From the NCBI RefSeq assembly GCF_030124325.1, contig NZ_JASKLR010000008.1:172914-236913 (forward strand): a stretch of 64,000 nucleotides of DNA. The letters are read 5' to 3'. The DNA is from Sinorhizobium sp. 8-89. GTDB lineage: Bacteria; Pseudomonadota; Alphaproteobacteria; Rhizobiales; Rhizobiaceae. Position 1 is the stretch's first letter. Each line of letters starts with the position of its first letter. The position numbers and the translations under genes were made by a program. Positions 18,615 through 35,700 of the stretch are shown here, one piece after another. The notes beneath the pieces are model-generated. The model was given only the letters and a program-made list of their open reading frames with translations, did no database searches and was not told where the DNA came from.

Positions 18615-19544
18615 TCAGATGTCGGAAAGCCCCTCTTCTTCGACGTCGTTGGCGCCCAGCGCCACAAATTGATCCAACAACCACGAAGCGGCCGGTCCCG
18701 GCGGCGTGTCGCGCCGCCAGACGCCGGCGAAGCGATAGATTCCACCCTTGTGATCAGGCATATCGAGCCGCAAGAGCGTACCGCTTTCCAGGTCGGGCCG
18801 GACCAGAGGCAGGGGCATGTTGCCCCAGCCGATCCTCTGGCGTAGCAGCGCATGCTTGGCGCCGAGGTCGGCGAGCCGCCAGGTCCGAGGACTGAGCACG
18901 GCAAAATCCTGCCCCTCGGTGAAGAGTGAACGATCAGTCAAGACGAGTTGGACGTGATTTCGCGCCTCTCCTGGCTCGATCCTTTCCATGCGCCCGAGCG
19001 GATGGTCGGGCGCGGCCACCGGAATCATGGGCACCGACCCGGCTGCGATGCACTCCACTCCCTCGACGCCCACCGCCAGCGGGCCGGAAATCCCGATCAC
19101 CGCCTTGCGCTCAAGCACGGCCGCGGTGACCGCGCCGAGGGCTTCGACATGCAGGCACAGCGACACCGTGCGAAACGTTTCGGCAAAGGCGTGCAATACC
19201 TTTCCGAGCCTTTCCGCTGGCAGCATCACGTCGACCGCGATGTCCACCTCCGCCTCCAAACCGTCGAGCAGTCCCTTCACCTTGGCGCGCAGGCCGTCGA
19301 GGCCGTGCGCGAGTGCCCGCGCTTCCGCGAGCACGGTTCGCCCTGCGGCCATCAATTTGGGCTTGCGCGTGCCTTCGCGCTCGAACAACTCGATGCCGAG
19401 TTGCGCCTCCAGATTGGCGATGCCGTAGCTGATGACGGAGACGGCACGGTTGAGCCGACGGGCTGCGCCCGCAAAACTTCCGGCATCGACCACGGCCAGG
19501 AACACCCGAAGCTGCTCGAAAGTCGGTGTGCCGGGATTAGACAT
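18615..19544 (-). CDS. LysR-family transcriptional regulator
   Basis: A 309-residue LysR protein. The N-terminal HTH is clear (FEQLRVFLAVVDAGSFAGAARRLNRAVSVISYGIANLE), followed by a co-inducer domain. The C terminus is distinctive (FVALGANDVEEEGLSDI) and a closely similar tail is preserved as a fragment at 35379-35470. It is convergent with the FAD oxidoreductase and its 5' side faces a 400-bp gap before the next plus-strand gene. The regulated target is not obvious; it could be the plus-strand AraC gene or a lost neighbour. Confidence 0.9.
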   Translation of the reverse strand: MSNPGTPTFEQLRVFLAVVDAGSFAGAARRLNRAVSVISYGIANLEAQLGIELFEREGTRKPKLMAAGRTVLAEARALAHGLDGLRAKVKGLLDGLEAEVDIAVDVMLPAERLGKVLHAFAETFRTVSLCLHVEALGAVTAAVLERKAVIGISGPLAVGVEGVECIAAGSVPMIPVAAPDHPLGRMERIEPGEARNHVQLVLTDRSLFTEGQDFAVLSPRTWRLADLGAKHALLRQRIGWGNMPLPLVRPDLESGTLLRLDMPDHKGGIYRFAGVWRRDTPPGPAASWLLDQFVALGANDVEEEGLSDI

Positions 19545-19947: not shown

Positions 19948-20793
19948 ATGCCAATCGGACCGCAAGTGACCGTACTTCGATCAGAATCCATGTCGGTTGC
20001 CCATGTTCGGAGCGATCACGTCGGCAAGCATGAGAGCATCGCAATCCCGAATTCGGACTCATTCAGCACCATCGTTCAACTTCGCCCGTTCAAGGATCAC
20101 CGTTTGTGGCGAAACGGGCGGCTGGTGCATGATGGAGGCCACGCGCAGGGGGCATTGTCGATCACAGATCTTGCCGAGGACTGGCGCTGCGAGCACCGCT
20201 CACAATTCGACAACATGCGATTTGCGATCGATCGCAAGGTCCTGCAGGCGTTTTTGCGGGATAACGGAAAAGGCGGGCTCGCCCGCCTCAAATGCGAGCC
20301 CGGCCAGATCGACCCGGTGGTGCACCATCTTGCCCAAGCGCTCCTGCCTGCTCTTTCAGATCCGCAGAACGCCGACAGCCTGTATGTAGACCACGCCCTG
20401 CTTGCCTTGCAGGCCCATCTCGTAAGCCGCTACGGCGGCGTCGACCTCGCCTCCGTTCAGCCGCACGGCCTTTCCAAACATCAACTGACTGCCGCGACGG
20501 CCTATCTTGCGGAGCATGCGTCACGCAAAATCGCGATGACGGAGATCGCATCGATCTGCGGCCTGTCCACAAGCCACTTCATTCGGGCATTCAAGAAATC
20601 GACCGGGCGCACGCCGCATCGCTGGCTGACCGAACACCGAATCCAAAAAGCGAAAAGCCTGCTCCTGGGAGAGACACCCATAGCAGAGATCGCCGTCAGT
20701 TGCGGGTTTGCGGATCAAAGCCATCTGACCCACGTATTCTCGGCCATCTGCGATGTTTCGCCAGCCGCTTGGCGACGCATGCAGCGCAAATGA
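19948..20793 (+). CDS. AraC-family transcriptional regulator
   Basis: A 281-residue regulator. The C-terminal ~100 residues hold two AraC-type helix-turn-helices (KIAMTEIASICGLSTSHFIRAF and IAEIAVSCGFADQSHLTHVF) and the closing SPAAWRRMQ. The N-terminal ~170 residues form a ligand- or partner-binding domain that I do not recognise. The ATG at 19948 is chosen for the AAAAAAGGAGGAAAC ribosome site; a longer frame to 19903 lacks one. It is convergent with the minus-strand dehydrogenase/transporter operon. The DNA-binding part resembles the short AraC protein at 38334-39029. Confidence 0.9.
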   Translation: MPIGPQVTVLRSESMSVAHVRSDHVGKHESIAIPNSDSFSTIVQLRPFKDHRLWRNGRLVHDGGHAQGALSITDLAEDWRCEHRSQFDNMRFAIDRKVLQAFLRDNGKGGLARLKCEPGQIDPVVHHLAQALLPALSDPQNADSLYVDHALLALQAHLVSRYGGVDLASVQPHGLSKHQLTAATAYLAEHASRKIAMTEIASICGLSTSHFIRAFKKSTGRTPHRWLTEHRIQKAKSLLLGETPIAEIAVSCGFADQSHLTHVFSAICDVSPAAWRRMQRK

Positions 20794-24651: not shown

Positions 24652-25320
24652 TCAGCGGCTGAGCGGGTATTTGAAGGCCATTTTCTCGACCGCGTAAAAC
24701 AGCACGGAGAAGCCGACCGACAAAGCGAGATAGATCAAGGTGACCGCGATATAGACCTCGAAGCTCGCGAAGCTCGCGGACTGGAGGTCGTTTCCGGCGG
24801 CGGCCAAGTCATCCGCGGAGATGACAGACACGACACTGGTATTCAGCATCAGGTAGATGAACTGGCTGGTGAGCGCAGGATAGACGGTCCGCAAGGCCGG
24901 CTTCATGATGACGTAGCGAAAGATCTGCGCCCTCGACAGGCCCAAGGCCCACCCCGCCTCCACTTGGCCCTTGTGAATCGACTCGATGCCGGCACGGATG
25001 ATCTCCGTGCCATAGGCGCCGAAATTGACGACGAGCGCCAAGAGCGCCGCACTGTTCGGCGACAGCCTCAGACCAAGCGACGGCATGCCGAAGAAGATGA
25101 AGAAGATCTGCACGAGGAAAGGCGTATTGCGGATGATCTCGATATAGCCGTCGATTACGGTACGCAGGATCTTCGGCCCGGACGTCTTTCCCCAAGCGCA
25201 GGCGATGGAGACGACAAGACCGATCAGCATGGCGGCGCACGACAGGCGGACCGTCAGCCAGGCACCGACGAGCAACTGGTCGAAGGACGCCAGGACAGGT
25301 GTGAAATTGAATTCGTACAT
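24652..25320 (-). CDS. Amino-acid-type ABC transporter permease
   Basis: A 222-residue inner-membrane permease (HisM/GlnP family, about five membrane helices). It starts MYEFNFTPVLASFDQLLVGA, has the EIIRNTPFLVQIFFIFFG block and the EAA loop EAGWALGLSRAQIFRYVI that contacts the ATPase. The ATG at 25320 has GGGAGGAGGT upstream; the 18-residue longer frame is rejected. It is the first gene of the transporter operon, with a 14-bp palindromic LacI-type operator 60 bp upstream. It pairs with the frameshifted permease 11 bp downstream. Confidence 0.92.
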   Translation of the reverse strand: MYEFNFTPVLASFDQLLVGAWLTVRLSCAAMLIGLVVSIACAWGKTSGPKILRTVIDGYIEIIRNTPFLVQIFFIFFGMPSLGLRLSPNSAALLALVVNFGAYGTEIIRAGIESIHKGQVEAGWALGLSRAQIFRYVIMKPALRTVYPALTSQFIYLMLNTSVVSVISADDLAAAGNDLQSASFASFEVYIAVTLIYLALSVGFSVLFYAVEKMAFKYPLSR

Positions 25321-25379
25321 GCCGGGACCTCCTCCCAAACCACCGAGACGGACGTCGCGCCTCCCCGCGTTCACGTCAC

Positions 25380-25435: not shown

Positions 25436-26458
25436 TCAGGTGGGTCGGCCGCAGGATTGGCGGATGTGCAAGGTCGTGTCGTTCACCACACGGCGCGGCG
25501 GCAGGGCCGGATCGGCGATCCGTTCGACGAGGAGTCGTGCCGCCATTTCGCCGATGGCGACGGGGCCGGTCGAAACCGAAGTAAGTCTTGGGCGGATCGC
25601 CTCGGCGTCCGCCACGTCGTCGAAGCCGATCAGGGACAGGTCGCGGCCGATCGTCAGTCCACAATCCTGAAGTCCCGCAGAAAGCCCCAGGGCCACAAGG
25701 TGATTGAAGCATATCACGGCGGTCGGCCGTGTCGCCCGGTCAAAAAGAAGATGGGTCGCCTTGGCGATTTCACCGAGCTGCGTCGGAAAGCGGATCAGGA
25801 CGCGCGGATCGAGACCACGCGACAGCATGGCGTCGCGAAATCCATCCACGCGTTCCTGATAGGCCGAGTGAACAGGGCCATGGACGGCAAAGGCAATTCT
25901 CTCGTGGCCGAGCGAGGCGAGATAGTCCACCGCCTGGCGCATCCCTGTTGCGTAGTCGGCTCCAACATAATCCATATCGAAGGAGATGTGGCGCAGCACT
26001 TGCACCACCGGCATGCCCCAATCGGCTATCTGCTCGGAGAGCGTCGATTCGGTGCGGGCGGCAGGGCAGAGAATGACCCCGTCCACGCCGTGTTCACGCA
26101 TGCGCCGCAGCAGCATTTCCTGTTGTTCGACTCGATCCCCGCTTTTGGCGAGAATGACCACCTTGCCGGTCGCGCCGATGATTTCCTCGATGCCCGACAG
26201 GAGCTCCGCGAAGAAGGGATTGGTTAGATTTGGGACGATGGCGCCGATGATCTGGCTGCGTTCGACGCGCAGGCGAGCGGCGCCGATATTGTAGACATAA
26301 CCCAGGTCACGCATCGCCTCTTCGACGCGCATGCGCGTCTCGCTGCCGACCAGCGGGCTCTTGCGAAGGACCAGAGAGGCGGTCGCGCGGGAGACGTTTG
26401 CATGTCGCGCAACATCGAGGAGCGTAACGCGAGTTTTTTTTCGTTCTTCGGAAGACAT
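25436..26458 (-). CDS. LacI-family transcriptional regulator
   Basis: A 340-residue LacI/GalR regulator. The N-terminal HTH with hinge is clear (VTLLDVARHANVSRATASLVL...LGYVYNIGAARLR), followed by a periplasmic-binding-protein-like sensor domain (IIGAIVPNLTNPFFAELL, DGVILCPAA, ICFNHLVALGL, SLIGFDDVADAEAIRP). The start at 26458 (MSSEERKK) gives the standard spacing to the HTH; the longer frame to 26563 is unlikely. It is transcribed toward the ABC transporter operon. The palindrome at 25380-25393 between them makes it the probable local repressor. Confidence 0.93.
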   Translation of the reverse strand: MSSEERKKTRVTLLDVARHANVSRATASLVLRKSPLVGSETRMRVEEAMRDLGYVYNIGAARLRVERSQIIGAIVPNLTNPFFAELLSGIEEIIGATGKVVILAKSGDRVEQQEMLLRRMREHGVDGVILCPAARTESTLSEQIADWGMPVVQVLRHISFDMDYVGADYATGMRQAVDYLASLGHERIAFAVHGPVHSAYQERVDGFRDAMLSRGLDPRVLIRFPTQLGEIAKATHLLFDRATRPTAVICFNHLVALGLSAGLQDCGLTIGRDLSLIGFDDVADAEAIRPRLTSVSTGPVAIGEMAARLLVERIADPALPPRRVVNDTTLHIRQSCGRPT

Positions 26459-26860
26459 TGAATACCGATGGGAAAGGAATGCGTGGAGAGGACTATAGGT
26501 GGACAACGAGGACCGGGCAAACGCTGTTCGATTTCCAGCAAATGGGAAGCGCTCGCCGCACATCGCGTTTCAAGAGATATCGCCTTGATCGGGGAGGAAA
26601 TTCGCCGCGCGTGCCAATAGCTGCAACGTGCACGGCCATCGTCGTGTCGGTACTCTGATAGCTCCACCCGGTCGCGAACACATCTCCTTCCCGGGCGTCT
26701 TTGACTTGTCATGCTAAGCTATTTGAATGAGCTGTGCGAAGGTCAATGAAGAAACATCACCCGGCCGAGCAATTTTCGACAATGAGCGCAGTGATCTACA
26801 ATCCGCATCCTCTCGCACGTACTAGGTTGTGCCCAGTCCGGTAACTTTATGGAGGTCTCT
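26459..26860. other. Divergent regulatory gap between LacI and isochorismatase genes
   Basis: About 400 bp without a convincing gene. It must contain the promoters of the LacI gene (minus) and the isochorismatase/XapX cluster (plus). A TTGACT at 26701-26706 could be a -35 element, but no convincing -10 follows at the right distance. No strong palindrome was seen. Confidence 0.4.
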
Positions 26861-27517
26861 ATGCCGACGAACGCCACGCCGACTCCTGGTTCTCTTCTGA
26901 TATCACCGAATGATCACACGCTGATCATGATCGATTTTCAGTCGCAAATGGCCTTTGCGACGAAATCGATCGACGCGGTATTGCTGCGTAACAACGCCGC
27001 GCTCGTGGCGCATGCCGCTGCCGGCTTTGGTGTATCCACCATTTTGACGACCGTCGCCGAGAAAACCTTCTCGGGCCCGATGTTCGGCGAGATCACCGAT
27101 GCCTTTCCGGGCCAGGCGCTGCTCGACCGCACCTCGATGAATACCTGGGAGGACGCGGCTGTCATCAACGAGGTCAATGCCATCGGCAAGCAGCGGCTGG
27201 TCTTCTGCGGACTGTGGACCTCCGTCTGCATTGTCGGACCGACGCTCTCGGCGCTTGACCAGGGCTTCGAGGTCTATGTGATCGCCGATGCCTGCGGCGA
27301 CGTTTCGGATGAAGCGCACGAGCGCGCCATGGATCGCATGGTTCAGGCTGGCGTCCGGCCGATGACCTCGCTGCAATACATGCTGGAACTGCAACGCGAT
27401 TGGGCCCGCACCGAGACCTACGAGATGACGACCGGCATCGCCAAGAAGTTCGGCGGCTCCTATGGCCTTGGCATCATCTACGCCAAGAGCATGTTCGGCG
27501 CGTCCGAAGGCCACTGA
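26861..27517 (+). CDS. Isochorismatase-fold hydrolase (YcaC-like)
   Basis: A 218-residue cysteine hydrolase of the isochorismatase superfamily. The catalytic Asp lies in LIMIDFQSQM (about residue 25) and the nucleophile Cys in FCGLWTSVCIVG (Cys123). The C-terminal block SLQYMLELQRDW is a family marker and recurs in two damaged copies at 34713-35338 and 35471-35700. The ATG at 26861 is chosen because GGAGGT lies 5 bases upstream. The substrate is unknown in the YcaC group (amides, N-carbamoyl compounds and others are candidates). It is the first gene of the XapX/amidohydrolase cluster. Confidence 0.92.
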   Translation: MPTNATPTPGSLLISPNDHTLIMIDFQSQMAFATKSIDAVLLRNNAALVAHAAAGFGVSTILTTVAEKTFSGPMFGEITDAFPGQALLDRTSMNTWEDAAVINEVNAIGKQRLVFCGLWTSVCIVGPTLSALDQGFEVYVIADACGDVSDEAHERAMDRMVQAGVRPMTSLQYMLELQRDWARTETYEMTTGIAKKFGGSYGLGIIYAKSMFGASEGH

Positions 27518-27534
27518 AGCCTTCCAGAACCAGG

Positions 27535-27628
27535 CTAGAGCAATTCCAGGAAGAGCGTGTAACGGTTTTCCGTCCGGAATTGCGCAGCTTCAAAGAGTCA
27601 GAGCCGTTCCGTCCGCGCGCGGAACGGC
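27535..27628 (+). repeat. Dispersed rhizobial intergenic repeat, copy 2, with hairpin
   Basis: It contains AGCAATTCCAG, AACGGTTTTCCG and GCTTCAAA in the same order as the inverted copy at 18559-18614. It is followed by a 9-bp stem GCCGTTCCG/CGGAACGGC (27603-27611 with 27620-27628). It fills the space between the isochorismatase and XapX genes and could attenuate transcription between them. Confidence 0.65.
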
Positions 27629-27647
27629 GCCTCTCGCGGAAAGGACC

Positions 27648-27938
27648 ATGCCTTTGAAAATGTACCTGCTGTCGCTTGGCGCCGGGGTGCTCGTGGGCGT
27701 CATTTACGGCCTGCTCAACGTTCGCTCGCCGGCCCCGCCGGTTATCGCGCTGGTGGGCCTCCTGGGCATCCTCATCGGCGAACAGGCCGTCCCAGTCGTC
27801 AAACGCCTGATATCGGGCAATCCCGTGAACGTTTCCTGGTTCAACAGCCGCTGTGTCCCGCACCTTTTCGGGGAACTGCCGACCGGGGTCGATCATAAGG
27901 GTGTGCCCGATCAGCCGCCGACGCGGGGGATTGGCTGA
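27648..27938 (+). CDS. XapX-domain (DUF1427) small membrane protein
   Basis: A 96-residue protein whose first ~55 residues are an XapX domain with two hydrophobic segments (LLSLGAGVLVGVIYGLLNV and PPVIALVGLLGILIGEQAV). The cytoplasmic-looking tail ends near VSWFNSRCVPHLFGELPT. XapX proteins have no known biochemical function and are often encoded beside isochorismatase-like hydrolases and amidohydrolases, as here. The ATG at 27648 follows GCGGAAAGGACC. The stop overlaps the start of the amidohydrolase gene (TGATG), so translation is coupled. Confidence 0.85.
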   Translation: MPLKMYLLSLGAGVLVGVIYGLLNVRSPAPPVIALVGLLGILIGEQAVPVVKRLISGNPVNVSWFNSRCVPHLFGELPTGVDHKGVPDQPPTRGIG

Positions 27939-29923
27939 TGCCGACCCGGCGCGGCTTTCTGGGAGCAGCCTCAGCCCTCGCGCTCCCCAACCTGTTTTCG
28001 CCGGCGCGCGCCGCCGATTCCGCTTCGATATCAGGAGACAAGCCAATGAGCGCCGATCTGATCCTATACAACGGTTTGCTGACAACGCTCGACCGCACGA
28101 ATCCGAACGCGACGGCCGCCGCGATCCAGGACGGCAAGTTCCTCGCCGTCGGGCAGGATGCGGAGGTGATGGCGCTTGCCGGGCCTGACACCAAGGTCGT
28201 CAATCTCAAGGGCAAGCGCGTGCTGCCGGGTCTGAATGATAATCACACCCACGTCGTGCGCGGTGGCCTGAACTATAATATGGAGCTGCGCTGGGACGGC
28301 GTGCGCTCGCTCGCCGATGCGATGAGCATGCTGAAGCGGCAGGTTGCGATCACGCCGCCGCCGCAATGGGTGCGCGTCGTCGGAGGTTTCACCGAGCACC
28401 AGTTCGCTGAAAAACGGCTGCCGACGATCGAAGAGATCAACGCGATCGCCCCCGATACACCGGTATTCCTGCTGCATCTCTACGACCGCGCCCTGCTCAA
28501 CGCCGCCGCACTTCGCGCGGTAGGCTTCAACAAGGAGACGCCGAACCCTCCGGGCGGCGAGATCACTCGTGATGCCAAGGGCAATCCCACGGGTCTCCTG
28601 CTCGCCAAACCGAATGCGGGCATTCTCTATTCGACGCTTGCCAAGGGGCCGAAGCTCCCCTTCGAGTATCAGGTCAATTCGACGCGCCGCTTCATGCGGG
28701 AGCTCAACCGCCTCGGGGTCACCAGCGTCATCGATGCGGGCGGCGGCTTCCAGAATTACCCCGATGACTACGCCGTCATCCAGAAGCTCGCCGACGAAGG
28801 GCAGATGACGGTGCGGCTTGCCTACAATCTGTTCACGCAGAAGCCGAAGGAGGAGAAGGAGGACTTCCTCAAATGGACGTCATCCGTCAAATACAAGCAG
28901 GGCGACGACTTCTTCCGGCACAATGGTGCGGGCGAGATGCTGGTCTTCTCGGCCGCCGACTTCGAGGATTTCCGCGAGCCACGCCCCGACTTGCCGCCCG
29001 AAATGGAAGGCGAGCTCGAGGAGGTGGTGCGGATACTCGCCCAGAACCGCTGGCCGTGGCGGCTGCACGCCACCTATGACGAGACGATCAGCCGCGCGCT
29101 CGATGTCTTCGAGAAGGTCAACCAGGACATTCCGCTTTCCGGCATCAACTGGTTCTTCGATCACGCCGAGACGATCTCCGACCAGTCGATCGACCGGATC
29201 GCGGCACTCGGCGGCGGCATCGCCGTGCAGCACCGCATGGCCTATCAGGGCGAATATTTTGTCGAGCGCTATGGCCACGGCGCCGCGGAAGCGACACCGC
29301 CGGTGGCAAAGATGCTCGAAAAGGGCGTGAATGTCTCGGCCGGTACGGATGCGACGCGCGTCGCCTCCTACAATCCCTGGGTCTCGCTCTCGTGGATGGT
29401 GACCGGCAAGACCGTCGGCGGCATGCAGCTCTATCCGCGCCAGAATTGCCTCGACCGCGAAACGGCACTCCGCATGTGGACCGAGAAGGTGCAATGGTTC
29501 TCCAACGAGGAGGGCAAGAAGGGCCGCATCGAGAAGGGCCAATTCGCTGACCTGATCGTGCCGAGCAAGGACTATTTCACCTGCGCGGAGGATGAGATTT
29601 CGTTCCTCACCTCAGAGCTTACCATGGTTGCCGGGAAGATCGTCTACGCGGCGGGTGATTTCGCGCGCCACGACGAAAGCCCGGTGCCGCCGGCGATGCC
29701 CGAGTGGTCGCCGGTCAGGACCTTCGGCGGCTATGCGGCCTGGGGCGAGCCGGATGGCGCTGGCAGGAACTCCCTACGGCGAGCCGCGATCAGCTCTTGC
29801 GGTTGCTCCAGCAGTTGCGGCGTGCATGGCCACGACCATGCCGGCGCTTGGACGTCACGCCTGCCCGTCGCCGACCTCAAGGGCTTCTTCGGCGCTCTCG
29901 GTTGCTCGTGCTGGGCCGTGTGA
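27938..29923 (+). CDS. Tat-exported amidohydrolase (YtcJ-like, amidohydrolase family 3)
   Basis: A 661-residue metal-dependent hydrolase. It begins with a twin-arginine signal (TRRGFLGAASALALP, cleavage near ARA-A), so it is probably exported folded. The catalytic part has the metal-binding HTHV of LNDNHTHVVRGG, a central HLYDRALLNAAALRAVG, and late motifs HRMAYQGEYF and SAGTDATRVASYNPW typical of the YtcJ group. The C terminus carries a Cys-rich segment (CGCSSSCGVHGH) and ends ALGCSCWAV, which I recall as characteristic of this subfamily. Its start overlaps the XapX stop by one base. Substrate unknown. Confidence 0.9.
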   Translation: MPTRRGFLGAASALALPNLFSPARAADSASISGDKPMSADLILYNGLLTTLDRTNPNATAAAIQDGKFLAVGQDAEVMALAGPDTKVVNLKGKRVLPGLNDNHTHVVRGGLNYNMELRWDGVRSLADAMSMLKRQVAITPPPQWVRVVGGFTEHQFAEKRLPTIEEINAIAPDTPVFLLHLYDRALLNAAALRAVGFNKETPNPPGGEITRDAKGNPTGLLLAKPNAGILYSTLAKGPKLPFEYQVNSTRRFMRELNRLGVTSVIDAGGGFQNYPDDYAVIQKLADEGQMTVRLAYNLFTQKPKEEKEDFLKWTSSVKYKQGDDFFRHNGAGEMLVFSAADFEDFREPRPDLPPEMEGELEEVVRILAQNRWPWRLHATYDETISRALDVFEKVNQDIPLSGINWFFDHAETISDQSIDRIAALGGGIAVQHRMAYQGEYFVERYGHGAAEATPPVAKMLEKGVNVSAGTDATRVASYNPWVSLSWMVTGKTVGGMQLYPRQNCLDRETALRMWTEKVQWFSNEEGKKGRIEKGQFADLIVPSKDYFTCAEDEISFLTSELTMVAGKIVYAAGDFARHDESPVPPAMPEWSPVRTFGGYAAWGEPDGAGRNSLRRAAISSCGCSSSCGVHGHDHAGAWTSRLPVADLKGFFGALGCSCWAV

Positions 29924-29971
29924 AGAGAGGGAAAGGGACTTCATGTCACCAAGGTGCCGTAAGGATCAAAA

Positions 29972-30199
29972 ATGAAGAACATCGCCAGTGCAGCCGCGAT
30001 AACGGCAGTCTCAATCTCAATCAGCTCATCGATCGCTCTCGGCCATGACCTGGCCCAATCAAGGGCCAGTCCCCGCCACCCGTGGGCGAAAGTCGTCGTG
30101 AACCATCCGCTGCCGAAGCATGGCGCCTATTACAAAGGGGTATCCCGGACAGCCCTACACAAAATTGAAAGGCTGCTCGAGAAGGAGCCCAGACGATGA
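29972..30199 (+). CDS. Small exported protein, unrecognised
   Basis: A 75-residue protein with a Sec-type signal (MKNIASAAAITAVSISISSS, cleavage near ALG-H). The basic mature part contains NHPLPKHGAYYKG and a C-terminal amphipathic stretch (ALHKIERLLEKEPRR). I do not recognise a family. TAAGGATC precedes the ATG. The stop overlaps the DoxX start (ATGA), which strongly supports it being a real, co-translated gene of the cluster. Confidence 0.65.
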   Translation: MKNIASAAAITAVSISISSSIALGHDLAQSRASPRHPWAKVVVNHPLPKHGAYYKGVSRTALHKIERLLEKEPRR

Positions 30200-30654
30200 G
30201 CCTGTCTTCCCTCGAGAACCATCTGACCGCCCGCTTTCGGCCGGGCCTCCCCGGCAGACGGATCCTGTTCGTCGGCCTGCTGGCGCTCTGCTCGGCCTAT
30301 ATCCAGGGACCGCTGACGAAGATATTCGACTTTCCGGGTGCGGTCGCCGAAATGGAGCATTTCGGCCTGCATCCGGCGCCGCTTTTCGCCGTCGGCGTGA
30401 TCGTCTTCGAGCTGTCGATGTCCGCATTCATCCTTGCCGGCATCTTGCGCTGGGCGGCCGCGCTTGCGCTTGCCGTCTTCACGCTCGCCGCGACCTTCAT
30501 CGCGCTTCGCTTCTGGGAATTGCCGCCGGGCATGGAACGCTCGATGGCGATGAACGGCTTCTTCGAACACATCGGGCTCGTTGGCGCGTTCACTCTGGTG
30601 GCATGGCACGACCTGCGTGAACATGGCGCATCCGGAAAGGGACGGACTTCATGA
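30196..30654 (+). CDS. DoxX-family membrane protein
   Basis: A 152-residue protein with about four hydrophobic helices and the DoxX-type arrangement: first helix ILFVGLLALCSAYIQGPLTK, then MEHFGLHPAPLFAVGVIVFE and AGILRWAAALALAVFTLAATF. DoxX proteins act in membrane redox contexts (thiosulfate:quinone oxidoreductase subunits, oxidative-stress complexes), but most are uncharacterised. Both ends overlap neighbours by ATGA, giving tight coupling to the small exported protein and the MFS transporter. Confidence 0.85.
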   Translation: MSLSSLENHLTARFRPGLPGRRILFVGLLALCSAYIQGPLTKIFDFPGAVAEMEHFGLHPAPLFAVGVIVFELSMSAFILAGILRWAAALALAVFTLAATFIALRFWELPPGMERSMAMNGFFEHIGLVGAFTLVAWHDLREHGASGKGRTS

Positions 30655-32261
30655 GTTCTCCATCTGCAACCCCGACGGCTGGCGGGTTCACGCCGCTACG
30701 CCAGAAGACCTTTGCCATTCTCTGGGTGGCGACCATTGTCGGCAACACTGGCAGCTTCATCCGCGATGTCGCAAGCTCATGGCTCGTCACCGACCTCTCG
30801 AACGCACCCGCCGCCGTCGCGGCGGTGCAGGCGGCGGGAACGCTTCCGATCTTCCTCCTCGCGATCCCTGCAGGGGTACTGTCGGACATTCTCGACCGCC
30901 GCAAGTTCTTGATCATCATCCAGCTCCTGCTGGCCGCAGCCAGCGTCTGCCTCATGTTGCTGTCTGCGATGGGGCTGCAGACTGTCACGTCTCTGATTGC
31001 GCTCACCTTCGTCGGCGGTATTGGAGCGGCGCTGATGGCGCCGACCTGGCAGGCCATCGTTCCCGAACTCGTCCCAAAGCAGGATCTCAAAGGTGCCGTA
31101 GCGCTCAACTCGCTCGGCATCAACATCTCCCGGGCGATCGGCCCGGCAGTCGGTGGCCTTCTGCTTGCCTGGTTCGGCGCTGCCTTTACCTACGGCGTGG
31201 ACGTCATCAGCTATATTTTCGTAATCGCAGCCCTCGTTTGGTGGAGGCGCGCGCCCGATGTCGACGACGGCTTGTCCGAACGCTTCTTCGGCGCTTTCCG
31301 CGCTGGTCTGCGCTATGCGAGGGCGAGCAGAGAGCTGCATGTCGTACTTCTCCGGGCGGCTGCATTCTTCGCTTTCTCGAGTTCTGTCTGGGCGCTCCTG
31401 CCGCTGGTCGCGCGAAATCTTCTCCACGGAGACGCCGGTTTCTACGGTGTCTTGCTTGGCGCGGTCGGCGCCGGTGCCATCGGCGGTGCGCTCGTCATGC
31501 CGAAACTTCGCGCAAGGCTCGATGCGGACGCGCTGATGCTCGGTTCGGCGCTCGTCACGGCTGCCGTGATGGCTGGCTTGTCCTTCGCGCCGCCTCGGTC
31601 GGTCGCGATTCTGGCCCTGCTTGCGCTGGGAGCCGCCTGGATCACTGCGCTGACAACACTGAACGGGGCCGCACAATCGATCCTGCCGAACTGGGTTCGG
31701 GGACGTTCGCTCGCCGTCTATCTCACGGTATTCAACGGTGCGATGACGGCCGGAAGCCTCGCCTGGGGTGCCATCGCGGAGATCGCCGGCGTTCCGACGA
31801 CCCTTGTCCTCGGCGCCGTCGGACTTTCCCTGGCCGGCCTCATGTTTCATCTCGTCAAGCTGCCAAAGGGCGAGGTGGACCTGGTGGCGTCCAACCACTG
31901 GCCGGAACCTCTCACGGCGGCTTCCGTCGAACATGATCGCGGTCCCGTGCTCGTTACGATCGAATATCAGGTCGACAAAGACGACCGGAGCGACTTTCTG
32001 AAGGCGCTCGCCGAGCTATCTGGAGAGCGTCGCCGCGATGGCGCCTATGGCTGGGGCGTCACCGAGGACGCCGCCGATCCAGATAGAATCGTCGAGTGGT
32101 TCATGGTCGAATCCTGGGCCGAGCACCTTCGCCAGCACCGGCGCGTCTCGAAAGCCGATGCCGACGTTCAGCAGGAGGTCCGCCGCTTCCACAAGGGGCT
32201 CAAGGCGCCCGTGGTGAACCATTTGTTGGCGATAAATCTTCCCCATCTCGGCCGCACCTGA
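30651..32261 (+). CDS. MFS exporter (MFS_3/EntS type) with C-terminal DABB-like domain
   Basis: A 536-residue protein. Residues ~15-410 form a 12-helix major facilitator of the EntS/MFS_3 type (FAILWVATIVGNTGSFIRDVASSWLV, SDILDRRKFLI). After a short linker, residues ~425-530 form a soluble domain with the pattern of an antibiotic-biosynthesis-monooxygenase/dimeric alpha-beta barrel (VLVTIEYQVDKDDRSDFLKAL, VEWFMVESWAEHLRQH). This fusion recurs in MFS_3 proteins, but its purpose is unknown. It probably exports a small molecule produced or modified by the cluster enzymes. The start overlaps the DoxX stop. Confidence 0.9.
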   Translation: MSSPSATPTAGGFTPLRQKTFAILWVATIVGNTGSFIRDVASSWLVTDLSNAPAAVAAVQAAGTLPIFLLAIPAGVLSDILDRRKFLIIIQLLLAAASVCLMLLSAMGLQTVTSLIALTFVGGIGAALMAPTWQAIVPELVPKQDLKGAVALNSLGINISRAIGPAVGGLLLAWFGAAFTYGVDVISYIFVIAALVWWRRAPDVDDGLSERFFGAFRAGLRYARASRELHVVLLRAAAFFAFSSSVWALLPLVARNLLHGDAGFYGVLLGAVGAGAIGGALVMPKLRARLDADALMLGSALVTAAVMAGLSFAPPRSVAILALLALGAAWITALTTLNGAAQSILPNWVRGRSLAVYLTVFNGAMTAGSLAWGAIAEIAGVPTTLVLGAVGLSLAGLMFHLVKLPKGEVDLVASNHWPEPLTAASVEHDRGPVLVTIEYQVDKDDRSDFLKALAELSGERRRDGAYGWGVTEDAADPDRIVEWFMVESWAEHLRQHRRVSKADADVQQEVRRFHKGLKAPVVNHLLAINLPHLGRT

Positions 32262-32433
32262 ACGCGCGCATCGTACGCGGCGCGGACGCTTTATCCAAAA
32301 GACAAACGGAACCGACAAGATGGATCGGGAGCAGCCCTTTAGGTTTTGAGCTGCGATGGATGACGGGCAGAGCGCCACTACCACCGTGGTCTAGCCCGCG
32401 TCCGCATCGCTTCAATAATGGCTAGGAGAGAGA

Positions 32434-33411
32434 ATGATGACCACTCGCAGATCGGTACTCAAGGGCACGCTTTCCCTCATGCTGGCCGCGTCAGCGATGA
32501 CGACGCTTGCGCCGCTCGGCGCGGCGGCGAAGGCGCCGCAAGTCAAGACCGCTGCCCCAGGCTACTACCGCATGATGCTGGGCGACTTCGAAATCACCGC
32601 GCTTTCCGACGGGACGGCGAAGTTTCCGGCAGAGACCCTCTATATTGGTGCCAAAGACCAGATCGCCGCCATGCTCACGAAGGCGTTTCTCGACTCGCCA
32701 GTCGAGCTGTCGGTCAATGTCTTTCTGGTCAACACAAATGAGCGGTTGGTGATGATCGATGCAGGCACCGGTGACTTCTTTGGCCCGACGCTCGGTAAGC
32801 TCATTCCGAACCTCGTCGCCGCTGGCTACCAGCCAGAGCAGATCGACGACATCATCCTGACCCACGCCCACGTGGATCACCTGGGCGGTCTCGTGGCAGG
32901 CGACAGGATCGTCTTCCCCAATGCCACGGTCCACCTCAACAGTCGCGACGCCGATTTCTGGCTGAGTGCCGCCAACCGCGACGCCGCGCCGGAGGCGAAA
33001 AAGGACTTGTTCTCCGCTGCCGTCAAGGCACTTGCGCCCTACCGCAATGCCGGCCGACTGAAGACCTTTGCGGACGGGGCCGAACCGGTGCCGGGCTTCA
33101 AGTCGACCCTGCGTGCCGGCCACACTCTAGGCCACAGCGCCATCACCGTCGAAAGCAAGGGCCAGAAGCTGGTGTTCTGGGGCGATATCACCCATGGCGA
33201 CGTCGTCCAATTCGACGAACCGGACGTGACGATCGGCTTCGATGAGGACCCGGCGGCGGCCGCAAGCGCGCGCGATGCCGCCTTCGCCGAAGCCGTCAAG
33301 GAGGGCTACCTTGTTGCTGGCGCCCATATTCGTTTCCCCGGCATCGGCCATGTCGGCACGGACAGCGACAATTTCGACTGGGTCCCTCTGAATTATAGCG
33401 TGACACCCTGA
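32434..33411 (+). CDS. Tat-exported metallo-beta-lactamase-fold hydrolase
   Basis: A 325-residue MBL-fold enzyme. The N terminus is a twin-arginine signal (TTRRSVLKGTLSLMLAAS...GAAAKA). The zinc-binding motif THAHVDHLGG is complete (His144, His146, Asp148, His149), with the later His ligands in GHTLGHSA and VAGAHIRFPGIGHV. Relatives include lactonases and periplasmic hydrolases. With the amidohydrolase it makes two Tat-exported hydrolases in one cluster. A 172-bp gap separates it from the MFS gene, so it may have its own promoter. Confidence 0.92.
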   Translation: MMTTRRSVLKGTLSLMLAASAMTTLAPLGAAAKAPQVKTAAPGYYRMMLGDFEITALSDGTAKFPAETLYIGAKDQIAAMLTKAFLDSPVELSVNVFLVNTNERLVMIDAGTGDFFGPTLGKLIPNLVAAGYQPEQIDDIILTHAHVDHLGGLVAGDRIVFPNATVHLNSRDADFWLSAANRDAAPEAKKDLFSAAVKALAPYRNAGRLKTFADGAEPVPGFKSTLRAGHTLGHSAITVESKGQKLVFWGDITHGDVVQFDEPDVTIGFDEDPAAAASARDAAFAEAVKEGYLVAGAHIRFPGIGHVGTDSDNFDWVPLNYSVTP

Positions 33412-33544
33412 TCCGCGGCTTTGGCGCCGCCGCTTCCGGACGCGCGCCGAAAGAGCCTCTGTATTTCTCCCATGATCGCGATCGCGGCCGGCGCCTTCGC
33501 GGCGGAAAACCTCTACCTCGAACCAAAGCAAAGGAACGGTTGCC

Positions 33545-34375
33545 ATGACTCAGAACTTCATCAGGACAGAAGACGGCGTCGAGATCTTCTACAAGGATTG
33601 GGGCTCGGGCCAGCCCATTGTGTTCCACCACGGGTGGCCGCTTACGTCCGACGACTGGGACGCGCAGATGCTCTACTTCGTGAGCAAGGGTTATCGCGTG
33701 ATTGCCCATGACCGCCGCGGACACGGTCGCTCGACCCAGGTCAGCGACGGCCATGACATCGCCCACTATGCGGCGGACGTCGCCGCGCTTGCGAAGCAAC
33801 TCGATCTGCGTGATGCCATTCACATCGGCCACTCGACGGGCGGCGGCGAGGCGCTGGCCTATGTCGCCCGACACGGCGCCGGCCGGGTCGCCAAGCTGGT
33901 GATGGTCGGCGCCGTGCCGCCAATCATGCTCAAGACGGAAGCCTATCCCGCCGGGCTTCCGATCGAGGTGTTCGACGGTCTGCGCGCCCAGCTCGCGGCC
34001 AACCGGTCCCAGTTCTTCCTCGATCTGCCGAGCGGTCTGTTCTACGGATTCAACCGTCCCGATGCGAAGGTCTCGACCGGCGCGATCCAGAACTGGTGGC
34101 GGCAGGGCATGATGGGCAGCGCCAAGGCCCATTACGACGGCATCAAGGCCTTCTCCGAAACCGACTTCACCGAGGACTTGAAGAAGGTCGAAGTGCCGAC
34201 CCTGGTCATGCACGGAGACGACGACCAGATCGTGCCGATCGACAGTTCCGCGCGGTTGGCCGTGAAGCTGCTGAAGAACGGCACGCTCAAGGTCTATGAG
34301 GGCTACTCGCACGGCATGCTGACGACCCATGCCGATGTGATCAATCCTGACCTGCTCGACTTTATCAGGGCTTGA
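33545..34375 (+). CDS. Alpha/beta hydrolase (chloroperoxidase/arylesterase type)
   Basis: A 276-residue cofactor-free haloperoxidase/arylesterase-type alpha/beta hydrolase. The nucleophile elbow is GHSTGGG with Ser97; the acid is the Asp in MHGDDDQIVP and the catalytic His is in GYSHGML. The oxyanion region is FHHGWPLTSDDWD. It acts on esters or lactones and may support perhydrolysis. No signal peptide is seen, so it is probably cytoplasmic. It follows the MBL hydrolase by 133 bp in the same direction and is the last intact gene of the cluster. Confidence 0.92.
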   Translation: MTQNFIRTEDGVEIFYKDWGSGQPIVFHHGWPLTSDDWDAQMLYFVSKGYRVIAHDRRGHGRSTQVSDGHDIAHYAADVAALAKQLDLRDAIHIGHSTGGGEALAYVARHGAGRVAKLVMVGAVPPIMLKTEAYPAGLPIEVFDGLRAQLAANRSQFFLDLPSGLFYGFNRPDAKVSTGAIQNWWRQGMMGSAKAHYDGIKAFSETDFTEDLKKVEVPTLVMHGDDDQIVPIDSSARLAVKLLKNGTLKVYEGYSHGMLTTHADVINPDLLDFIRA

Positions 34376-34712
34376 TAGTCCGCGGGGTGGATGCGAACGC
34401 CGCCGGCGGAAGACTATGCCCGGCAGAGGCACACGGCCCCCCTCCCAACGACGCTACGTCGTTTCGTCCATGCGGACGGAACGACCTTCCCTGTGGATGG
34501 ATGGGCCGGTGCCACAATCCTCTAATATCGCGCCAGGCTCTCCCTCGCGACCGAGACCATCGCGATCGTTGCATTGACATTGGCCACTTTGATCGTCGCC
34601 GCGATCACGGTCCGGACCGTTCTACACATCGTCAACGGGAAAGCATCTCGCGAGGACTTATGCGAGAATCCGACCAACAGGGGCTAGTGCCCCAAATCAA
34701 GGAGAACTTTCG
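34376..34712. other. Gap with a possible remnant of a membrane-protein gene
   Basis: About 340 bp with no convincing complete gene. One plus-strand frame ending at a TAG at 34685-34687 reads as a hydrophobic helix plus tail (ETIAIVALTLATLIVAAITV...). It is bounded upstream by a stop with no plausible start or ribosome site, so it could be the eroded end of a membrane-protein gene. Otherwise nothing was recognised. Confidence 0.35.
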
Positions 34713-35338
34713 ATGATTGATCCGAAACCGCTTCTGACGTCGACCGATTGCGCGCTGCTTCTGGTCGACCATCAAGCCGGACTTGCCTTTGCCGTCGAAT
34801 CGATCGACCGTCAGACGCTCCTGAACAACACCATCGCGCTAACGAGGACCGCGTCCGTTTTCGGGATCCCGATCATTGTCTCGACGTCCGCGACCGGGTC
34901 TACAGTGGTCCGTTGATGCCCGCGATTCAGAAAGTGATCCCCGACGTTCCGGTGATCGACAGGCGCAACATGAACGTCTGGGAACATGAGCCAGCCCGCC
35001 AGGCAGTAGAAGGCACCGGACGTCGCCGCCTGCTCGTTTCCGGTCTGCTCACGGAAGCGTGCGTTTCGTTTCCCGTTCTTTCTGCCCTTTCGGAAGGTTA
35101 CGAGGTCTTCGTCGTCGGCGACGCCTGCGGGGGGCTTGCCACTGCAAGCCACGAACTCGCTCTTCGTCGCATGGAGGCAGCAGGAGCGCATATGACATCG
35201 TGGATCCAAGTGCTGTTGGAATTACAGCGGGACTGGACCCGTCTCGAGACCTATGATGGAGCTCGATCGATCATCGAGACATATGGAGGAGGCTACGGTA
35301 TTGGCCTCAACTATGCGCGGGATATCATAAAGCCTTAA
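34713..35338 (+). pseudogene. Second isochorismatase-fold hydrolase, one-base frameshift near 34895
   Basis: AAGGAGA precedes the ATG at 34713. The first frame encodes the family start (CALLLVDHQAGLAFAVES with the catalytic Asp) through PIIVSTSA and then stops at 34916. The rest (RVYSGPLMPAIQKVIPDVPV..., the Cys nucleophile region SGLLTEACVSF, and the marker LELQRDW) continues in the next frame to 35338. Restoring one G in the GCGACCGGG tract gives a continuous 208-residue protein, the normal YcaC length. The protein is otherwise well conserved, so this is a recent lesion or a sequencing error. It is a paralogue of 26861-27517. Confidence 0.85.
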
Positions 35339-35470: not shown

Positions 35471-35700
35471 GCCTGGGCCGAACTTCTTGGCGATGCCGCT
35501 CGTCACACCGTGGGCCCCCGTGCCCGCAGCATCGATCTGCAACTCAAGCATGTATTGAAGGGAGGCCTGTCGGTCACCCGGATGGACCGTACGCTTCATC
35601 GCGTTTATGCGGCTTCTCCGGCCCCATGCGCAGACCGCACGTTGATGAAAACCTGGCAGTCGGCACGCTTGTCGAAGAGAGGAGATGCCGAACGCGCTCA
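35471..35700 (-). pseudogene. Decayed third isochorismatase-fold gene fragment
   Basis: On the minus strand, SLQYMLELQ and TSGIAKKFG match the C-terminal third of the intact hydrolase at 26861-27517. Fainter matches in other frames lie upstream (QVFINVRSAHG against EVYVIADACG). Stops and frame changes are frequent, so it is non-functional. It is opposite in direction to the other two copies, indicating a rearrangement at this end of the cluster. Confidence 0.65.

Follow-up and report, generated by a model that had tools for sequence, protein, structure and literature searches.

We have investigated a cluster of eight genes within a 64,000-nucleotide stretch of the genome of Sinorhizobium sp. 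8-89 (7.06 Mb; contig NZ_JASKLR010000008.1, positions 172,914 to 236,913), hereafter termed the window. The genes encode an isochorismatase-fold hydrolase (iso), a XapX protein, an amidohydrolase, a small predicted secreted protein, a DoxX-family membrane protein, a transporter of the major facilitator superfamily (MFS), a metallo-β-lactamase-fold (MBL) hydrolase and an α/β-hydrolase (abh). A first-pass annotation had described them as co-directional and several of them as coupled by ATGA and TGATG overlaps, and both statements are borne out. Searches of the window with open reading frames (ORFs) and family profiles place all eight on the plus strand at the positions listed in Table 1, with a TGATG overlap at the junction of xapX and the amidohydrolase gene that is seen in the sequence and two ATGA-type overlaps, taken from ORF coordinates, which join the gene of the secreted protein to doxX and doxX to the MFS gene. 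The spacing is looser further downstream, with 172 bases between the MFS and MBL genes and 133 bases between the MBL gene and abh. Five of these genes in the order iso-xapX-amidohydrolase-doxX-MFS (I-X-A-D-M), in part of the loci together with abh, constitute a unit that is conserved in alpha-, beta- and gamma-proteobacteria.

A conserved five-gene core

The conservation of the cluster was analysed with XapX and the amidohydrolase as separate anchors. Of 398 genomes sampled from the phylum, 38 contain a match to the XapX family PF07235, 30 of them with a score above the curated threshold; the 14 control genomes contain none. An ortholog of the window-type amidohydrolase is located on 18 of the 20 stretches surrounding XapX hits of at least 85.9 bits, counting a partial one on a separate contig of the same genome (C51), and on 2 of the 12 stretches around weaker hits. 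Conversely, a scan of named genomes with an amidohydrolase alignment returned at least 579 confirmed relatives, the best 80 of which were kept as loci. In this set, which is biased towards close relatives of the query and whose loci are not independent, tblastn (E 1e-4, match anywhere in the stretch) detected iso in 75, xapX in 70, doxX in 61, the MFS gene in 54 and abh in 35 loci, compared with 5 for the MBL gene and 2 for the small exported protein of 75 residues. The latter two are local extras outside the conserved unit, and what recurs from the eight-gene set of the first-pass annotation is thus the five-gene core, often with abh.

For the analysis of gene order, we pooled the window, the 80 amidohydrolase-anchored and 21 XapX-anchored loci into a set of 102 (numbered with the prefix L where individual loci are named), 100 of which contain the amidohydrolase. 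A gene run was defined as genes on the same strand as the amidohydrolase with gaps below 350 bases. Such runs include iso in 88, xapX in 83, doxX in 71, the MFS gene in 59 and abh in 32 of the 100 cases. According to a purpose-made ORF caller, the start of the amidohydrolase gene is overlapped by xapX in 42 of the 83 pairs in which the two are adjacent, and doxX and the MFS gene overlap in 31 of 38. The XapX-anchored loci on their own contain iso, xapX and the amidohydrolase in 19 of 21 cases each and doxX, the MFS gene and abh in 11 each. As controls, we used 40 hand-placed 20-kb stretches elsewhere in the genomes of the XapX-anchored set (E 1e-10, 35% identity, half of the query), where none of the five core families was found and abh and pirin appeared once and twice, respectively. 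A lack of co-occurrence in other genomes, on which the first-pass annotation would have abandoned its candidate system, is therefore not what these neighbourhoods display. The counts describe amidohydrolase loci, since of the 32 stretches fetched around XapX hits we excluded ten that are devoid of the amidohydrolase (L052, L054-L057, L059-L063), besides contig C51 of the same genome (L032); L034 and L038 were kept though they contain XapX and no amidohydrolase.

XapX is the usual partner of the amidohydrolase and seems dispensable, because 8 of the 11 genomes lacking xapX beside the amidohydrolase have no PF07235 match anywhere (one locus, L135, is truncated at its start, and some genomes are metagenome bins); an obligatory partnership was thus rejected. 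On a Streptomyces plasmid (L197, NZ_CP108988.1), a hydrolase, a YoaK/DUF1275 protein and the amidohydrolase are adjacent and no XapX is annotated there; YoaK may act as a stand-in for XapX in this case. Among the matches listed, the closest named relatives of the amidohydrolase are from Sinorhizobium/Ensifer, and 382 plasmid records match the protein, including 102 from Rhizobium and 83 from Sinorhizobium. Partial amidohydrolase-like stretches covering query residues 163-489 with about 86% identity, possibly remnants, are present on the Escherichia albertii plasmids CP043253.1 and CP043249.1. Two further observations concern the surroundings of XapX: a very long ORF of 1870 residues is located nearby at L045:10712-16324, with its cluster found in 13 of the 102 loci, and in Pantoea (L196:570-6493) XapX is flanked by an 'AAA family ATPase' that is itself located next to response regulators.

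The genome of Sinorhizobium sp. 8-89 itself carries additional pieces of the core. Contig C51 (L032:1-1150) contains iso, xapX and the start of an amidohydrolase gene, and contig C57 (L203:6108-9865) the remainder of an amidohydrolase gene followed by doxX and the MFS gene. These are probably parts of one second copy that is cut inside the amidohydrolase gene by the contig ends. The last 99 bases of C51 are identical to the copy in the window, which is probably why the assembly broke at this position.

An amidohydrolase with a Cys/His tail and two start sites

The profile score and the conservation of likely ligand positions assign the amidohydrolase to the Amidohydro_3 family. H103, H105, E333, H377, H409 and D471 are invariant in alignments of 20 and 62 sequences and likely coordinate the metal. 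In a Foldseek search with the first AlphaFold2 model, the best matches in the PDB are 3igh and 3icj, both uncharacterised metal-dependent hydrolases, and the structure has accordingly not provided a named function.

At its C-terminus, the protein extends into a tail that consists of two parts, a C-x(2-4)-C-x-[VML]-H-x-H-x-H motif, mostly preceded by another C-x, and a [FW]-G-x-[LMF]-G-C-x-C-[WF] motif at the extreme end. Both parts are found in 96 of the 100 orthologs and one part in the remaining 4, with C627, H630, C656 and C658 being invariant in the 62 aligned sequences. Since these include proteins from the xapX-less loci L088, L096, L124, L126 and L138, the tail is independent of XapX. 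The distant Streptomyces relative at L197 carries no such tail. A structured conformation of this region was rejected, with residues 600-661 and 609-661 showing a predicted local distance difference test score (pLDDT) below 50 in AlphaFold2 models calculated from 20 and 62 sequences, respectively. Metal binding or thiol chemistry would be obvious possibilities for its role.

A second feature concerns the N-terminus. The upstream ATG at 27938, which overlaps the xapX stop codon, opens a signal for twin-arginine translocation (Tat), and a second in-frame ATG at 28046-28048, preceded by AGGAG at 28033-28037, is located directly before the mature domain. By a simple sequence rule, a Tat signal is present in 46 of the 100 orthologs and absent in 54, one of the latter being truncated at its start. 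In 45 of the 46 Tat-bearing orthologs, a start codon is located no more than 12 codons from the mature domain, in 37 together with a Shine-Dalgarno-like motif. Among the orthologs devoid of a Tat signal, the motif accompanies the start at a similar frequency (42 of 54), and it is far rarer before other internal ATGs (67 of 1406). The latter comparison is slightly generous, as GTG and TTG were admitted beside ATG for the near start and the most favourable of several candidates was chosen. Upon removal of L129, which has no convincing signal, 36 of the remaining 45 sequences contain the second start with its motif, compared with 4.4 expected under synonymous recoding with the identical rule for observed and expected values (20,000 simulations, maximum 13). 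After thinning to 13 sequences below 85% identity, the numbers are 8 and 1.7 expected. We read this conservation above the recoding expectation as selection for the second start, which is predicted to yield a cytoplasmic form lacking the Tat signal beside the exported one. The alternative of a start left over from a signal-less ancestor fits less well with the conservation of the motif. In many species, the enzyme would thus probably reside in both compartments. The assignment of two periplasmic and two cytoplasmic hydrolases in the first-pass annotation is in this respect too simple. The tail and the dual start are both new features of this module.

Other proteins and features of the locus

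Table 1. Features of the cluster and its surroundings (window coordinates).
Feature	Position	Strand	Description
iso	26861..27517	+	YcaC-type isochorismatase-fold hydrolase, 218 aa; PF00857, 89 bits
Dispersed repeat copy	27532..27602		About 70 bases, between iso and xapX
xapX	27648..27938	+	XapX/DUF1427, 96 aa; PF07235, 135 bits; TIGR03510, 72 bits
Amidohydrolase	27938..29923	+	661 aa; Amidohydro_3, PF07969, 443 bits; Tat signal
Second start of amidohydrolase	28033..28048	+	Internal Shine-Dalgarno and in-frame ATG
Cys/His tail of amidohydrolase	29798..29920	+	Residues 621-661; from ortholog conservation
Small predicted secreted protein	29972..30199	+	75 aa; one N-terminal hydrophobic segment; no family
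doxX	30196..30654	+	DoxX-family membrane protein; PF07681, 57 bits
MFS_3 transporter	30651..32261	+	PF05977, 769 bits, residues 11-529 of 536
MBL-fold hydrolase	32434..33411	+	PF00753, 74 bits; methyl parathion/dihydrocoumarin hydrolase family; local extra
abh	33545..34375	+	α/β-hydrolase; PF00561, 112 bits; frequent partner
Broken YcaC-like gene	~34713..35338	+	Frame change; degraded duplicate, after the cluster

The product of iso is a relative of Escherichia coli YcaC, with which it shares the fold family. D25, R90 and C123 align with D19, R84 and C118 of YcaC, which we take to be the catalytic positions of YcaC-like cysteine hydrolases. It is not YcaC itself, as its score of 123 bits against the YcaC equivalog NF041461 is far below the cut-off of 310. 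Two versions of the protein interchange among the loci, with about 70-96% and 39-49% identity to that of the window. XapX is a clear family member (PF07235 cut-off 27.1 bits) with two hydrophobic segments peaking at residues 7-25 and 32-50. At the limits used, sequence searches revealed no relative of solved structure for XapX or the MFS protein, and for DoxX one at chance level only. The MFS protein scores 86 bits against the EntS export model (cut-off 324). The MBL protein contains a Tat-like N-terminus, as read from its sequence, and an HxHxDH motif at residue 144. Its nearest structures are 5hif (355 bits), a reconstructed lactonase/dihydrocoumarin hydrolase, and the methyl parathion hydrolase 1p9e (324 bits), and with 204 bits it remains below the cut-off of 360 for the quorum-quenching lactonase AidB (NF047979). 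The abh protein is of the cofactor-free chloroperoxidase/arylesterase type (1zoi, 420 bits; 1a88, 411 bits) with a GHSTGG motif at residue 95. A function in anti-phage defence was rejected: PADLOC returned no match for seven of the eight proteins and weak matches of up to 25 bits for the MBL protein.

Upstream, the opposite strand encodes a regulator of the LacI family (25436-26563) and the permease of an ABC transporter (24652-25374), which look unrelated to the cluster. The repeat between iso and xapX (about query positions 833-903) is matched by at least 35 short stretches in other parts of the genome, with 40 of 253 candidates scored, and presumably resembles rhizobial intergenic elements. 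A search of positions 26500-34700 with Rfam at gathering scores gave no match to an RNA element. The broken YcaC-like gene is accompanied by a short fragment of the same kind on the opposite strand (35480-35602), both being decayed duplicates that adjoin the cluster.

Genomic neighbourhood in relatives

The neighbourhood was described from named ORF clusters within about 10 kb on either side of the core in the 102 loci. A ring-cleaving dioxygenase of the MhqO type, a member of the vicinal oxygen chelate (VOC) family, is present in 26 loci and within the gene run in 12 of 100, its representative matching Bacillus subtilis MhqO (3oaj, 248 bits) and a dichlorohydroquinone dioxygenase (4huz, 140 bits). 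Pirins, with a representative that matches the quercetinase YhhW (176 bits), are found in 27 loci and in 21 of 100 gene runs. An MhqD-like esterase is represented by a protein scoring 127 bits, below the MhqD cut-off of 325. LysR regulators fall into one group found in 49 and a second found in 13 of the 102 loci. In a phylogeny whose sole E. coli references are YhaJ, PunR, AllS and YcaN, the second group clusters with YhaJ apart from the other three (support 100/98, with long-branch warnings), and 8 of these 13 loci also contain a pirin. An Alginate_exp-type porin and a DUF1275 protein are encoded in 25 and 22 of the 100 gene runs, respectively. A protein with a signal-like N-terminus (L099:3277-4188 and relatives), whose representative has no match in Pfam or NCBIfam, appears in 17 of 100, usually adjoining the porin.

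These neighbours recall known systems that respond to aromatic compounds. According to the accessible part of PMC5031710, E. coli requires the LysR regulator YhaJ to induce yqjF in response to hydroquinone, catechol and related compounds, mutation of the YhaJ box reduces hydroquinone induction of yhaK, ybiJ, ygiD and yhhW, and YhhW, a pirin, has quercetinase activity. The yqjF gene is annotated as a member of the DoxX family, and the YhaJ regulon (yhaJ/yhaK, yqjF, yhhW, ygiD) resembles the loci in which a YhaJ-clade LysR and a pirin-like protein are found together with DoxX. It differs in that no core of YcaC-type hydrolase, XapX, amidohydrolase and MFS protein is named in that part of the paper or annotated beside yhaJ, and the core in the window has no adjacent LysR or pirin: the divergent regulator is of the LacI family, and the nearest LysR of this kind, 32% identical to the representative, is more than 7 kb upstream. 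The mhq modules containing MhqO, MhqD and an MFS protein share the dioxygenase and the MhqD-like esterase with some relatives, although not with the window, where no MhqO-type dioxygenase accompanies the core. The available text of PMC12673573 describes the Paenibacillus cluster with a MarR-type regulator and reports no XapX, amidohydrolase or YcaC-type hydrolase. An assignment of B. subtilis MhqP as a DoxX protein was not used; the same text calls its MhqP an azoreductase. Finally, the BexR-controlled PA1202 operon of Pseudomonas aeruginosa unites a LysR-controlled hydrolase, redox proteins and a homolog of pirin, whereas its control is bistable and no amidohydrolase, XapX or MFS_3 protein is named in the portion of PMC2796861 at hand.

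Discussion

The conservation of the genes, the catalytic residues, the tail and the second start are observed properties of a five-gene core, often complemented by abh, which we tentatively propose to be an inducible module protecting against reactive aromatic compounds, with a probability of roughly 0.42. Its targets would be hydroquinones and quinones, polyphenols, and the products of their conjugation or ring cleavage. The amidohydrolase, acting in the cytoplasm and in many species also after export by the Tat pathway, would cleave amide- or ester-like intermediates together with the cytoplasmic YcaC-type hydrolase, the MFS_3 pump would export the product or the parent compound, DoxX and XapX may provide support at the inner membrane, and the local aromatic esterase/lactonase would widen the range. 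The suggested substrate class derives from the neighbours in relatives, since MhqO, MhqD-like proteins, pirins and YhaJ-like LysR regulators are encoded near the core in some of them, which also favours the electrophile detoxification considered in the first-pass annotation. In 45 genomes, pirin is found in 17 loci compared with 0.63 expected from all 171 pirins in their 269 Mb, and the MhqD-like esterase in 5 compared with 0.07 (20 matches of at least 88 bits counted). Moreover, both accessory hydrolases in the window, abh and the MBL protein, belong to families acting on aromatic esters and lactones.

Numerous findings weigh against this proposal. The majority of the loci contain neither the dioxygenase nor a pirin, and no match to MhqO, pirin or MhqD-like proteins was detected in the 64 kb of the window, C51 or C57 (E 1e-6). 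The 45 genomes behind the pirin and MhqD-like counts were picked from the 80 loci after their neighbourhoods had been viewed. With same-genome controls, the differences are not significant for either pirin (2 of 21 versus 2 of 40) or the dioxygenase (2 of 21 versus 0 of 40). The regulators vary in type between LysR, AraC and NarL. The second LysR group is nearly as close to PunR as to YhaJ (best BLAST match YhaJ in 8 and PunR in 5 cases), and the larger group is nearest to YcaN in 51 of 51 cases, of the four references. In the window, the core is adjoined by the LacI regulator and the ABC transporter, with the nearest regulators of the cluster types, an AraC (41%, 20146-20778) and a LysR protein (32%, 18765-19523), located 6-8 kb upstream. 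No conserved operator was detected upstream of iso, either in an alignment of 8 close relatives or by 7-mer enrichment in 95 upstream stretches, and DoxX bears a weak likeness to YqjF (5 hits of 27-35% identity). Our searches likewise turned up no transcript or enzyme data on the core. A clue from the accessible text of a 2005 census (PMC554113), where DUF1427 was confined to plant-associated Proteobacteria and a role in that lifestyle was suggested, is weakened as many of the loci belong to hosts that are not known for association with plants.

This counter-evidence holds the proposed protective role at the stated probability and leaves the catabolism of aromatic amides or esters as its main rival. 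Such a module would take up a plant or soil aromatic with an amide or ester linkage through the porin and the MFS protein and hydrolyse it as a nutrient, in line with the porin and DUF1275 genes in the gene runs, the dominance of hydrolases in the set and the many copies on rhizobial plasmids. We nevertheless consider it unlikely, because the MFS protein resembles export models, and uptake is thus not its likeliest role, the regulator types vary and the named ORF clusters contain no further ring-degradation set beyond the dioxygenase, although no search was aimed at one. The Cys/His tail, conserved in nearly all orthologs, and the two small membrane proteins could instead be reconciled with a unit for metal handling or metallo-enzyme maturation. 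This appears improbable given that neither model shows an ordered tail and that no metal regulator or pump is found among the named ORF clusters, again with no search aimed at one.

An equally improbable role would be the defence against reactive chlorine or N-halogenated compounds, to which the chloroperoxidase family of abh and the proximity of pirin and AraC or LysR regulators in some loci could point: the AraC protein of the cluster is distant from RclR (38 bits, cut-off 400), and the named ORF clusters do not include an RclA-like reductase, for which no dedicated search was made. Even less probable is the destruction or recycling of a lactone or amide quorum signal. The recycling of such a signal had been raised in the first-pass annotation, and the resemblance of the MBL protein to AidB and the predicted export of the amidohydrolase in many species would be compatible with it. 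The case is weak, with the MBL gene present in 5 of 80 loci and its product closer to methyl parathion and dihydrocoumarin hydrolases, and to our knowledge the families of the core include no acylase of acyl-homoserine lactones, a point we count against this role in the absence of a search.

The component families are known. In the literature searched, a conserved module of this composition is undescribed, and it can be classed as kin to LysR- and AraC-linked modules of aromatic stress. Open-licence articles in PMC yielded no functional study of the cluster, XapX or DUF1427, which does not prove its absence from print. In the parts of these sources at hand, a XapX protein appears in a table of PMC13268207, and a ycaN mutant shows lower expression of ycaC with no function given (PMC9068703). 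The P. aeruginosa gene PA2693, a provisional number derived from accession order, is simply listed in the accessible part of PMC4552174. Whether I-X-A-D-M constitutes an undescribed and widespread phenolic and quinone stress system, with a two-compartment amidohydrolase made from two starts as its hallmark, a tail responsive to electrophiles or metals and XapX as usual membrane partner, is a more far-reaching claim that we regard as doubtful. If it held, this unrecognised system would be shared by many Proteobacteria, both free-living and plant-associated.

Our analysis places XapX/DUF1427 in the context of an operon with a testable hypothesis for its role and predicts a dual-localised amidohydrolase with a conserved tail. 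If the proposed function were true, the handling of plant phenolics by rhizobia and other soil bacteria would be tied to one common module.

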